Source of the DNA: Fibrobacter sp. UWR3
GTDB lineage: Bacteria; Fibrobacterota; Fibrobacteria; Fibrobacterales; Fibrobacteraceae
Length of the DNA stretch: 64,000 nucleotides
Assembly (NCBI RefSeq): GCF_900143055.1
Contig: NZ_FRCW01000005.1
Span: 124,001 to 188,000, forward strand
Direction: 5' to 3'
Positions 33,840 to 37,561 of the stretch are shown in pieces. The notes beneath the pieces were generated by a model, which worked only from the letters and a program-made list of their open reading frames with translations, was not told the origin of the DNA and searched no databases. The number at the start of each line of letters is the position of its first letter. Position 1 is the first letter of the stretch. Made by a program: the position numbers and the translations under genes.

Positions 33840-33848
33840 GAAAAAAGC

Positions 33849-33878
33849 TTGCACGCGGCCCATCAAATTATGTATATT
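33849..33878 (+). promoter_or_regulatory. Promoter of a candidate non-coding RNA
   Basis: TTGCAC (33849-33854), 18-bp spacer, TATATT (33873-33878). A start near 33885 would be expected. No gene begins until 34153. Confidence 0.6.
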
Positions 33879-33884
33879 ATACCC

Positions 33885-34070
33885 CGTAGATTGCATTAAT
33901 CCTGCTGACAGCGTATTCAATCCGGGCAGGAAGTTTAACTATCTGCTTGACGCCGTTCTCCCTCCGCATGGTGCAACTAGCCTGCGGCTCGAGGACAGGA
34001 ACCCTGTGGGGAAGCCGGCCCCATGGCGAGCAACGTAGAGTTCCACCCGCAAAAATGCGGGTGCATTTCC
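33885..34070 (+). ncRNA. Candidate structured RNA, class unknown
   Basis: About 185 nt downstream of a good promoter with five plausible local stems: CCTGC/GCAGG (33901/33926), CCTC-CCGCA/TGCGG-GAGG (33961-33994), ACAGG/CCTGT (33995-34007), GGGG/CCCC (34008-34022) and ACCCGCA-AAAA-TGCGGGT (34045-34062). The 5' TTGCATT and 3' GTGCATTTC could also close the molecule. The length suits a 6S-type RNA but I find no decisive motif; no tmRNA, RNase P or SRP signature. It may instead be a long leader of the nuclease gene. No convincing protein on either strand. Confidence 0.45.
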
Positions 34071-34092
34071 AAAAAAACACAGCACTTTAACC

Positions 34093-34140
34093 GCCGTATG
34101 TTTACGCGTCCCTTTCGCGTACCGTAAACGTCTATACGGC
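34093..34140 (+). promoter_or_regulatory. Strong hairpin directly before the Rpn-type gene
   Basis: GCCGTAT-GTTTACG pairs with CGTAAAC-(GTCT)-ATACGGC, 14 bp with one bulge. The AAAGGA ribosome site follows immediately at 34141-34146. It could control translation or be a DNA site recognised by the nuclease. Confidence 0.6.
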
Positions 34141-34152
34141 AAAGGAATACCT

Positions 34153-35172
34153 ATGGAACAGGAAGACTTTGTTCCCGACTACGCACAGATTTCCCGTGAT
34201 ATCTGGATCCAGCAGACCTACGAAGAAATCAAGAAGCGCACCTATCTCGACCCGCTCTACGACGCCGCATTCAAGGCTTTTCTGAGCGACGAGCAGGCGC
34301 TTATCAGTTTCTTGAACGGAGTGTTCCAGCTGGAAGGCGACAACCGTATCACCGCCGTCACCATCAAGAATACGGAAGTGAACATCCTCTTTCCGCAGGT
34401 CAAGACGTTCAGGCTCGACATTCGCGCCACGACTTCGACCGGATTCAGCATCAATGTGGAAATGCAGAAGGCGAAGCACAGCCGCTTCATCGAACGCATC
34501 CTTTTGCAGCACAGCGCATTCATGCTCCAGAGCAAGCACGAATGGGACCAGGAATTCTTCAAGGAACCCGCGAGGGAACTCACCGACGAGGAGCGCGCTC
34601 TGCGCGAAGCCTCCCGGTACGAAATTCCGCCCACCTTCGCCATCTGGATTTGCGATTTTTACCTGGAAAAGCAGTCCGGATACCGCGGCACCTGGGCAAT
34701 CCGCAACGAGCAGGGCTTGACGCTTTCTGAAAAGGTTAAGTATATTTTGTACGACCTGACGCAGTTCAGCAAGAAACGCGAAGAAATCAACACCGCCGAG
34801 GACCGCTGGCTCTACCTGCTCAAGAACGCAGGTTCGTCCGACGACCTCCCCGATTTCGACGACGGTGTTATCGCGAAAGCGATCAAGCGCCTCCTTGTGG
34901 GAACAGCATCGGAAAAACTCCTGAAGGAACAGGCAAAGAACATGGTGATGACGGAAGAAGAACTGGACTATCTGGCCTCGCTGAAGGTCCGCGCCCGTGC
35001 GGAGGGCAAGGCCGAAGGCTTGGCTGAAGGCATTGCTGAAGGCAAGGCAGAAGGCAAAACGGAAGGCCACGCAGACGCTCTCAGCGTGTTTGAAAAACTG
35101 GGCGTTCCTCCGGAAAAAATCGCCGAAGCCAAAGCCATGCTTTCGGCAAAGAAAAATGAATTACCCAAATAA
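34153..35172 (+). CDS. Rpn/PD-(D/E)XK family nuclease with AEG-repeat tail
   Basis: 339 residues. The N-terminal 300 residues match the PDDEXK_2/Rpn family: YLDPLYDAAFKAFLSD at the start, KTFRLDIRATTSTG and INVEMQKAK giving the D...ExQ active site, then ERILLQHSAFM and PPTFAIWICDF. Members are often annotated as transposases and promote recombination. From about residue 285 an Ala-Glu-Gly repeat (EGKAEGLAEGIAEG) links to a DALSVFEKLGVPPEKIAEAK tail, which also occurs as a separate small gene at 15481. A strong hairpin and a possible RNA gene lie upstream. Confidence 0.85.
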   Translation: MEQEDFVPDYAQISRDIWIQQTYEEIKKRTYLDPLYDAAFKAFLSDEQALISFLNGVFQLEGDNRITAVTIKNTEVNILFPQVKTFRLDIRATTSTGFSINVEMQKAKHSRFIERILLQHSAFMLQSKHEWDQEFFKEPARELTDEERALREASRYEIPPTFAIWICDFYLEKQSGYRGTWAIRNEQGLTLSEKVKYILYDLTQFSKKREEINTAEDRWLYLLKNAGSSDDLPDFDDGVIAKAIKRLLVGTASEKLLKEQAKNMVMTEEELDYLASLKVRARAEGKAEGLAEGIAEGKAEGKTEGHADALSVFEKLGVPPEKIAEAKAMLSAKKNELPK

Positions 35173-35271: not shown

Positions 35272-36981
35272 TTATGGGATGTTATTGGGCATCAAGCCTA
35301 ATTCACGAAGACGATAAATGGGAACGCTAAAAGTTGAATCCATTTCATAACTTTCATCCCCCAATGGATCGTAATAATGCCTTATTCCTTCTTGAACTGC
35401 ATCATAAAATGTCCAACTTGTATTACCAATCATTGTTGTTTCAACGAAACTTAAATCATCACCAAGAGGATTTTCAATCCACCCAACAAAAGCGTGCGAA
35501 GGAATGAATATAACATATGCAAGAAGTCCCAGACGTTCTAATACTGATGCAAAGAGCACAGCGGTTTCAATACATATTCCTTGTCTTTTTCGGAGCGTTT
35601 CAACAGGATAATTAACTCTTTGACCTAGACTTGCTGCGCCATTATTTTCGACATACTTAATATTTCGTGACTGAAGGACTTCAAAAACAGCTTTAACCAC
35701 ACGATAAGTACTCATCTCAATTGATTCATCTTGTCCGTATTTTTGATAAACCTTGAGTTCACCATTGGGTAGTTTTTTTGCAACTTCATCAACAATCTTC
35801 GTTATAGAATCCGCCATCGGAGTTACCCAAGCTCCTATCCACAATCTTTTATCAGGTATTGCTTTGGTCGAAAAGATCTGCATCGGGTGTATAGTCACAG
35901 GCTTAGACTCTGTATAGAACAGCATCTTACAATTATTTTCAAGGGCATAAGCTTCTATATGTCGTAAAGTCTGTTTTGGTGCAGACAAAGCATACAATGC
36001 ATTATCATTAAATTTAAACGACGGAGAAAGAATTAGCCTAGAATGAGGTTTAACAACACCTGTCGCAGTTATCGTATCAGTATAACCAGAAATCCATGTC
36101 TTTACCATTATTTTCTTTTGGTTACAACTCTCTGATAAAACATCACACGAATCATAGATGAAAATAGGAAATGGTGATTGAATTATTATTGAGTCACCAT
36201 TTTCATCAGCAATAGGAAAATCCTTATACATTAGCGAATACTGATTTGCGTATGCACCATAGATTTCATCCATGCCATCATCTTTAGCATACAAAGTCCT
36301 AATTACACTTTGTCTGTAAATATCACTATAAACACTGTCATAGAGTTTATTATAAAGCGAATCATAGTCCGCTTCTTTAAGGCTATCAATCAATGCCTGA
36401 CGCGCAGAATCAATCCATGCTTCGCTAAACGCACTGTCAAAACTATTTTTATAAACCGAGTCAACATAAGATTCCGCATAAAGACTGTCAATGAGAGTCT
36501 GGCGAACAGAGTCCATCCATTCTTTACCAAAGGCCTTTCCAAAAAGGTCGCCATTGACCGAATCCATATAGGATTCAGCATAAAGGCTGTCAATAATCGC
36601 CTGTCGGGTCGAATCCATCCAGGCCTCGCCGAAAGCCTGGTCGAAAAGATTTTTGTAGACTGTATCGATATTGGGAGCTGTTTTCACACTGTCCCAAAGA
36701 GAACCAGAGATTTCTTTTCGAATTGCGTCGGCGAGAGAATCAATATTCACAACAGCATCTTTTCCGTTTGCACCAGGGGCACCATCTTTACCATCAACAC
36801 CCGGTGTTCCATCCTTACCATTTGTACCTGCTAGTCCGTCTCTTCCATCGCGACCGTCGGCACCAGCAATTCCATCCTTGCCATCGGCACCCGAACAGGC
36901 GACCATACAAAAGCTTAGAGCCACCGCAATCAAAACTAGGAGTTTATTGAAGAACTGGAAGTAATGTTTTTCCGCAGCCAT
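35272..36981 (-). CDS. Lipoprotein with collagen-like repeats and transglutaminase-like domain
   Basis: 569 residues. GGAGG 5 nt before the ATG at 36981 fixes the start. A lipoprotein signal ends at CMVACSG (about residue 29). A Gly-X-Y stretch of about 45 residues (GADGKDGIAGADGRDGRDG...) is collagen-like. Then come three to four imperfect repeats of about 35 residues (FGEAWMDS.RQAIIDSLYAESY), probably helical. The C-terminal 200 residues are a transglutaminase/cysteine-protease-like domain with the triad in RQGICIETA (Cys), PSHAFVGW (His) and FVETT (Glu). Possibly a surface stalk with an enzyme head; substrate unknown. AT-rich, likely acquired. Confidence 0.75.
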   Translation of the reverse strand: MAAEKHYFQFFNKLLVLIAVALSFCMVACSGADGKDGIAGADGRDGRDGLAGTNGKDGTPGVDGKDGAPGANGKDAVVNIDSLADAIRKEISGSLWDSVKTAPNIDTVYKNLFDQAFGEAWMDSTRQAIIDSLYAESYMDSVNGDLFGKAFGKEWMDSVRQTLIDSLYAESYVDSVYKNSFDSAFSEAWIDSARQALIDSLKEADYDSLYNKLYDSVYSDIYRQSVIRTLYAKDDGMDEIYGAYANQYSLMYKDFPIADENGDSIIIQSPFPIFIYDSCDVLSESCNQKKIMVKTWISGYTDTITATGVVKPHSRLILSPSFKFNDNALYALSAPKQTLRHIEAYALENNCKMLFYTESKPVTIHPMQIFSTKAIPDKRLWIGAWVTPMADSITKIVDEVAKKLPNGELKVYQKYGQDESIEMSTYRVVKAVFEVLQSRNIKYVENNGAASLGQRVNYPVETLRKRQGICIETAVLFASVLERLGLLAYVIFIPSHAFVGWIENPLGDDLSFVETTMIGNTSWTFYDAVQEGIRHYYDPLGDESYEMDSTFSVPIYRLRELGLMPNNIP

Positions 36982-37561
36982 GACAGCCTCCATTGTTTAA
37001 GCTTATGGAGTTTGCCCCTGTCGGCAACAAGCCATGCCATTTGAAAAACAAAAAAAGGCGCAGATCGTTGCATTTACCTGCGTGGGGCTCTCGACTGCCT
37101 TTAAGCGATAAACGCAAACGACCCACGCCCCAAACGGGCGACAATACTGTAAAAACACAGTTTTGCCGAAATACGCAAAAACAAACCGCAAAAAGCGGTC
37201 TGACAAACGCATTTACGTGAGCGTTCGCCTTGTCTACGCTTAAGGAAATTGTCGAGATTTCACACAGAAGACAAGAGCAAAAACTCTATTTCACTCAAAA
37301 AAATAACATAAAAAATACTGTTGAGTACAAAAAATTTACAAAGAACGGCCTATTTCTGTCCTTTTTTGCGGAAAATCACTCTTTTTTAGAGGGGATACCC
37401 ATACTCCAAGTTAAAATACATTTTTGTATATTTCTCCCATCGCGCCAACGGCAGAGAACCTGCCCGAAGAGCCGACCGATTATTATGTGATTCCCGATGG
37501 CGAGAAATTCGTCGGGTTTTATGTAAATTCGGCCGGCTCTTTTTTGTTTATAGGAGAATTC
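36982..37561. other. 580-bp intergenic region
   Basis: No supported gene. It holds possible hairpins, GCGTGGG/CCCACGC (about 37079-37136) and ACCGC-AAAA-GCGGT (about 37186), and a terminator-like structure at its right end (separate entry). Open frames here have poor codon use and no ribosome sites. Confidence 0.5.
37469..37545 (+). terminator. Terminator-like hairpin before the toxin-like gene
   Basis: GAGCCGACCGA (37469-37479) pairs with TCGGCCGGCTC (37529-37539) with one mismatch, followed by six T. The loop is about 49 nt. The ribosome site of the next gene lies 7 nt beyond, so it may act as an attenuator. Confidence 0.5.

Follow-up and report, generated by a model that had tools for sequence, protein, structure and literature searches.

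A covarying RNA family that heads interchangeable toxin and phage-defence genes in Fibrobacteraceae and probably acts as their 5′ leader

Individual defence genes with an RNA leader are known. Of the described cases, the one most similar to the RNA analysed here is the abiF motif RNA, also called RCd22 (RF03085), a structured RNA that has its own promoter, lies directly upstream of a phage-defence toxin gene and is partly co-transcribed with it; it accompanies one protein family, is ~100-130 nt long, carries a terminator in addition to repeated motifs, and binds its cognate toxin (PMC12373285). The mRNAs of tisB-type type I toxins possess a long folded 5′ leader in which the ribosome-binding site is buried (PMC7708055). 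Rpn proteins are toxin-antitoxin and anti-phage proteins in E. coli and form a gene-within-gene protein system; in the main text of that study, the words "leader", "untranslated" and "structured" are absent (PMC10327210). Here we analysed a stretch of 64,000 nucleotides from Fibrobacter sp. UWR3 (contig NZ_FRCW01000005.1, positions 124,001 to 188,000; hereafter the window), in which a sequence-only reading had proposed a possible new structured RNA at 33849-34070, between lysS and an Rpn-type nuclease gene. We found that positions 33896-34040 of the plus strand are a copy of a structured RNA family of about 145 nt. We consider it probable that this family forms structured 5′ leaders controlling interchangeable toxin and phage-defence genes in cis, on one transcript, in Fibrobacteraceae, most likely by gating ribosome access.

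Like abiF/RCd22, the Fibrobacter RNA is structured and stands with a promoter directly ahead of a phage-defence toxin gene, but it has another fold and is followed by about ten unrelated protein families. No Rfam model, RF03085 included, matches it and its downstream genes are not of the Abi_2 or AbiD/F type; thus, it was not assigned to the abiF motif. With tisB-type mRNAs it shares a long folded 5′ leader and a buried ribosome-binding site ahead of a toxin gene, whereas the tisB-type systems encode small membrane peptides, employ an antisense RNA as antitoxin and have no fold common to unrelated toxins. Compared with the E. coli Rpn systems, the window gene and most of the genes found downstream of the RNA (the cargo) are also Rpn, and the RNA is an extra layer on only some of the Fibrobacter Rpn genes. 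The 5′ leader position, the conserved junction core and an alternative pairing that may form close to the ribosome-binding site recall riboswitches and other cis-regulatory RNAs; however, the genes downstream are toxin and defence genes rather than genes of metabolism or transport, and this gene set suggests no ligand. The general characteristics of a cis-regulatory leader, namely a covarying fold on the strand of the gene and a position directly upstream of genes, were all found.

Four copies occur in this genome, the window copy and three more detected by DNA search, and a DNA search of relatives gave matches in 32 of 100, every one in the same genus. Two covariance models were constructed, R1 from an alignment of 18 sequences with a hand-read consensus structure and R2 from 100 copies, and the window core scored 154.7 and 148.3 bits with them, respectively. 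R1 detected the RNA in 45 of the 80 Fibrobacter genomes and also in two sister genera within Fibrobacteraceae, and a scan of a 167-genome phylum set with R1 gave no copies beyond these genera. R2 converged on the same 51 genomes and added more divergent copies; 112 copies were tabulated in all, so the family has at least this many. In pattern scans of 84,980 species genomes and viral contigs, rescored with R1, no match outside Fibrobacter passed, and the best viral match (L290, 16.7 bits), which was borderline, was rejected after reading. Rfam 15 at the gathering cut-off found three tRNAs only in the window and nothing in the RNA interval, and permissive thresholds with the core and two divergent copies gave only weak, chance-level matches. 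The family is a previously uncatalogued structured RNA, absent from Rfam, which bears out the suspicion that the RNA belongs to no recognised class. We found no earlier description of it in the open literature; an earlier listing, for example in a 2017 candidate-RNA survey, is possible. Because the only open reading frames (ORFs) overlapping the interval are mechanical ones of 47-67 amino acids (aa), and because length differences between copies elsewhere are not multiples of three, the interval is not coding, as had been judged from the letters. 6S RNA is a long hairpin with a central bulge and is detectable by the Rfam 6S models. The suggestion of a 6S-like RNA was not sustained, as no Rfam 6S model matched and the RNA combines a P1 hairpin with branched helices P2-P4, is multi-copy and patchy in distribution, and lies ahead of toxin and defence genes.

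Comparison of the copies proves the fold by covariation. In the 18-sequence set, 12 pairs vary on both sides, giving 34 such cells where shuffles give 9.7. Among 100 copies (92 distinct), 27 of the 31 base pairs vary on both sides (in 327 cells, where shuffles give 68) and 94.7% of cells are paired; this second alignment was built to fit the structure and is hence biased towards the fold, whereas the first was not. In 500 shuffles none of the five measures was reached, and the signal was lost once the partners were slid out of register. Covarying base pairs, which the sequence-only reading had proposed to seek in other Fibrobacter genomes, are therefore abundant. Since G-U cells (271) exceed A-C cells (27), the plus strand is the folded strand, and the folded molecule is RNA. 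A ranking by mutual information placed the modelled pairs on top and yielded two weak signals inside the P1 loop, with no convincing new long-range helix or pseudoknot.

The core runs in the order AAUCC, hairpin P1, a near-invariant UCUGCUUGA, P3 with its apical hairpin, P4 (GGGG/CCCC) and a near-invariant CAACGUAGRGC, which closes P2. In the window, P1 (33901-33930) pairs CCUGC at 33901-33905 with GCAGG at 33926-33930, and all five pairs vary on both sides. The closing helix P2 (33942-34039) joins UCUGCUUGACGCC at 33942-33954 to GGCG-A-GCAA-C-GUAGA at 34025-34039; 97.7% of its cells are paired, nine of its 13 pairs vary on both sides and one is a near-invariant G-U pair. P3 (GUUCUC/GAGGAC) and its apical stem CCGCA/UGCGG (33964-33968 with 33983-33987) occupy 33955-33996, with variation on both sides in 9/9 modelled pairs, and P4 (34008-34022) pairs GGGG at 34008-34011 with CCCC at 34019-34022 (99.7% of cells paired; 4/4 pairs varying on both sides). 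Directly 3′ of the core stands P5 (34044-34063), a perfect hairpin that reads CACCCGCA/TGCGGGTG with its flanking pairs; its inner part, ACCCGCA-AAAA-TGCGGGT at 34045-34062, is the perfect end stem noticed earlier. The position of P5 is kept in other long leaders, and its pairing is retained there with different letters. The five local stems counted from the sequence correspond to P1-P5, and P1-P4 covary. P1 loops of divergent copies are of the UACG/UGCG type. About 20 copies (L114, L115, L124, L108, L109 and others) carry an extension of 70-90 nt in the P1 loop, which contains the hairpins GACGCC..GGCGTC and TTTCAAGC..GCTTGAAA. A free mobile element was considered for this extension and rejected, as copies of high identity are almost confined to these RNAs, with a few weak partial copies elsewhere.

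The promoter read from the sequence, with a -35-like TTGCAC at 33849-33854, an 18-base spacer and a -10 TATATT at 33873-33878, is confirmed on the plus strand (33849-33878), and its -10 is conserved across copies. In 65 of 98 copies a TATATT lies no more than 70 nt upstream, compared with 72 of 1980 random windows; its distance from the core is mostly 19-24 nt, and TTGC- often precedes it by 16-19 nt. A strict sigma-70 scan did not score the window promoter because TTGCAC matches at only 3/6 positions. The RNA proper begins near 33885 and the leader extends to the start codon at 34153; thus, the interval drawn at first does hold a real RNA, while its right edge at 34070 cuts the leader short. 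The downstream gene (34153-35172, plus strand, 339 aa) encodes an Rpn-family PD-(D/E)XK nuclease (PF12784, E=4e-26; TIGR01784, 57.8 bits with a cut-off of 52.1) with AEGK-type repeats near its C-terminus. Folding of the leader placed its last hairpin, GCCGUAU/AUACGGC, at 34093-34140 on the plus strand, and a Shine-Dalgarno-like AAAGGA follows just downstream at 34141-34146. No intrinsic terminator was found on the plus strand between RNA and gene in the window copy; the perfect stem of P5 was tried as one and rejected, as no U-run follows it on that strand. Because no plus-strand terminator intervenes, we infer a single transcript of the RNA and the Rpn gene from this promoter. A transcript running unbroken into the nuclease gene had been named as evidence against the RNA; such a transcript is probable here, and it makes the RNA a 5′ leader instead of refuting it. 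The further idea of a leader linked to the nuclease gene is supported, the two being on the same strand and directly adjacent. On the minus strand, a terminator-like hairpin with a T-run lies inside the leader at 34077-34099, within chance expectation, and could end an antisense transcript.

A same-strand ORF begins within 330 nt of the RNA in 109 of the 112 copies, a few of these 109 ORFs being unconvincing. Rpn nucleases (PDDEXK_2 or Transposase_31) account for 64 copies, DUF1016/YhcG nucleases for 10, HigBA for seven, a small protein with a GNAT-like partner for seven, ORF6N for six, Ntox50 toxin for four, a PIN-like protein with a partner for three, metallophosphatase for two, DUF2281 for two, and Schlafen-AlbA and a DUF4258-like protein for one each, the GNAT-like, PIN-like and DUF4258-like labels having been assigned by reading sequences that gave no Pfam match; cargo is absent or unclear in five copies. 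The DUF1016 and ORF6N types are listed by PADLOC as candidate defence proteins (PDC-S02 and PDC-S05). The identifiable cargos are almost all of toxin, nuclease or defence types, mutually unrelated and of about ten families. Cores that are 92-98% identical head unrelated families (PIN and HigBA, 97.6%; Rpn and Schlafen, 95.7%; Rpn and Ntox50, 93.5%). A guide RNA, another earlier suggestion, is unlikely for an RNA that stands ahead of so many unrelated proteins, and a cargo-specific RNA antitoxin was rejected on the same grounds. Fold, family, consistent position and cargo classes are all direct observations.

The RNA and Rpn gene adjoin lysS in this genome and in genome G054, and ispD in G029 and G033; at the lysS locus the similarity of most compared genomes to the window ends at 33842-33848, immediately ahead of the promoter. 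Loci L125 and L129 are ~95% identical in upstream DNA and RNA, yet PIN gives way to HigBA as the cargo immediately past GTAGAGCTC; L066 and L075 have the entire leader in common up to the start codon, followed by different genes. Tandem RNA-gene-RNA-gene arrays occur at L124 and L136. The best explanation of these sequence comparisons would be that promoter, RNA and gene act as an evolutionary unit with a swappable gene. Upstream of lysS in G033 (L166) lies a decayed 5′ fragment of the RNA, the scar of a lost unit; the full RNA-Rpn unit of that genome is at ispD. At L089 (G010) the RNA has no cargo, and the position looks like the same locus as L115 (G056), which has RNA and Rpn, so the cargo appears to have been lost and the RNA kept. 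At six loci (L081, L083, L085, L086, L087 and L091) the RNA-Rpn unit is flanked by two near-identical copies of a terminator-like hairpin, AGCAGGCCGCG-GAACGACCTGCTTTT, one ~65-125 nt ahead of the core and the other ~1.1-1.2 kb after it. In the window, a neighbouring gene on the minus strand (35272-36993) joins a collagen-like repeat to a transglutaminase-like domain.

From sequence comparison we infer cis control, a switch mechanism and a trigger. A promoter-proximal folded core (P1; P2 closing P3 and P4) and a variable 3′ part would be co-transcribed with the cargo gene, and the fold would gate cargo expression, most likely through ribosome access and hence translation. The 3′ strand of P2 in short leaders stops 14-34 nt short of the start codon. 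In many of the long leaders this strand, GUAGAGCACC, may pair instead with a downstream GGUGUUCUGC and so compete with P2; of 80 long leaders, 42 contained a downstream complement of GUAGAGCACC with at least eight contiguous pairs (typically GGUGYUCURC), where 4.8 would be expected, related copies being counted. The last hairpin in many long leaders would bury the Shine-Dalgarno sequence, whose median unpaired value was 0.17 against 0.33 in 151 control genes taken from the window and the collected loci (p ~4e-7, the copies being related and not independent).

Several observations weigh against leader control of this kind. The competing-helix and Shine-Dalgarno tests both count related copies. 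In the window the switch is least clear, because the copy lacks the GGUGUUCUGC competitor, though P5 and the final hairpin are present, and its Shine-Dalgarno sequence is only half buried. Rpn genes occur in 80/80 genomes and the RNA in 45/80, so Rpn genes can do without the RNA; in this genome PF12784 has 10 matches, whereas only three Rpn genes are RNA-led. Moreover, in HigBA copies a TTGACA-17-TATATT promoter separates RNA and gene, so that the RNA may not supply the main 5′ untranslated region (UTR) of these genes, and a pure 5′ UTR model leaves the promoter unexplained. This HigBA promoter (L129, L130, L113, L135 and L077) stands just after the core, overlaps an inverted repeat and stops a few bases before the start codon; it would yield a near-leaderless toxin transcript.

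A leader acting on transcription, by attenuation, antitermination or mRNA protection, would also suit a promoter-proximal and highly conserved RNA, and acquired cargos might need protection from premature termination. We regard this as unlikely, since the window leader has no plus-strand terminator-like element and the alternative pairings of the long leaders target the ribosome-binding region. Alternatively, the RNA could be a separate trans-acting small RNA, either an antitoxin binding the downstream toxin in the type III or AbiF/RCd22 style or a global regulator that is merely adjacent. Its own promoter, its compact stable fold, the separate promoter after the RNA in HigBA copies and the precedent of AbiF/RCd22, an RNA upstream of a defence gene and partly co-transcribed (PMC12373285), agree with this explanation, but the near-identical RNAs ahead of unrelated proteins and the lack of a terminator in the window copy render it rather improbable. 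Type III toxin-antitoxin RNAs are specific to one toxin partner, usually consist of tandem repeats and neutralise the toxin protein; here the same RNA stands ahead of unrelated proteins and no tandem RNA motif was found within a leader.

The exchange of cargo exactly after GTAGAGCTC or at the start codon, the tandem arrays and the occurrence of the unit at different loci could also point to a recombination or cassette-attachment site, in which folded DNA or the conserved 3′ end CAACGTAGRGC joins incoming genes in the manner of an integron att site and any RNA role is secondary. Integron-type attachment sites have copies at both cassette borders and depend on a recombinase. At the Fibrobacter loci cargo swaps at the 3′ edge of the core, but no consistent second border copy or flanking repeat was found, and only true tandems showed a matching copy of the core at the 3′ end of the cargo. 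In addition, the conserved promoter and the excess of G-U over A-C on one strand point to RNA, and homologous recombination within the conserved RNA accounts for the swaps equally well; we consider an attachment site unlikely. We continue to favour a 5′ leader that gates ribosome access. Since the cargo proteins are not related to one another, its core would have to respond to a common cell factor or signal and not to the cargo. It is conceivable, and we put this forward only tentatively, that these RNAs are a single class of sensor to which a shared cell factor or signal binds, phage takeover and translation stress being examples, and that they turn on the whole interchangeable toxin and defence set, which would form a shared RNA "alarm" regulon on mobile promoter-RNA-gene cassettes.

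In the literature compared, we found no RNA family described as standing ahead of about ten unrelated families of toxin and defence genes. The present family suggests that a whole set of mobile defence genes shares one RNA control element. Should this RNA prove to be a regulator, it would offer a direct way to study how acquired toxins are silenced in bacteria and when they are released. The RNA is also a sequence tag for new Fibrobacter defence genes, and it marks ORF6N, DUF1016 and several uncharacterised cargos.
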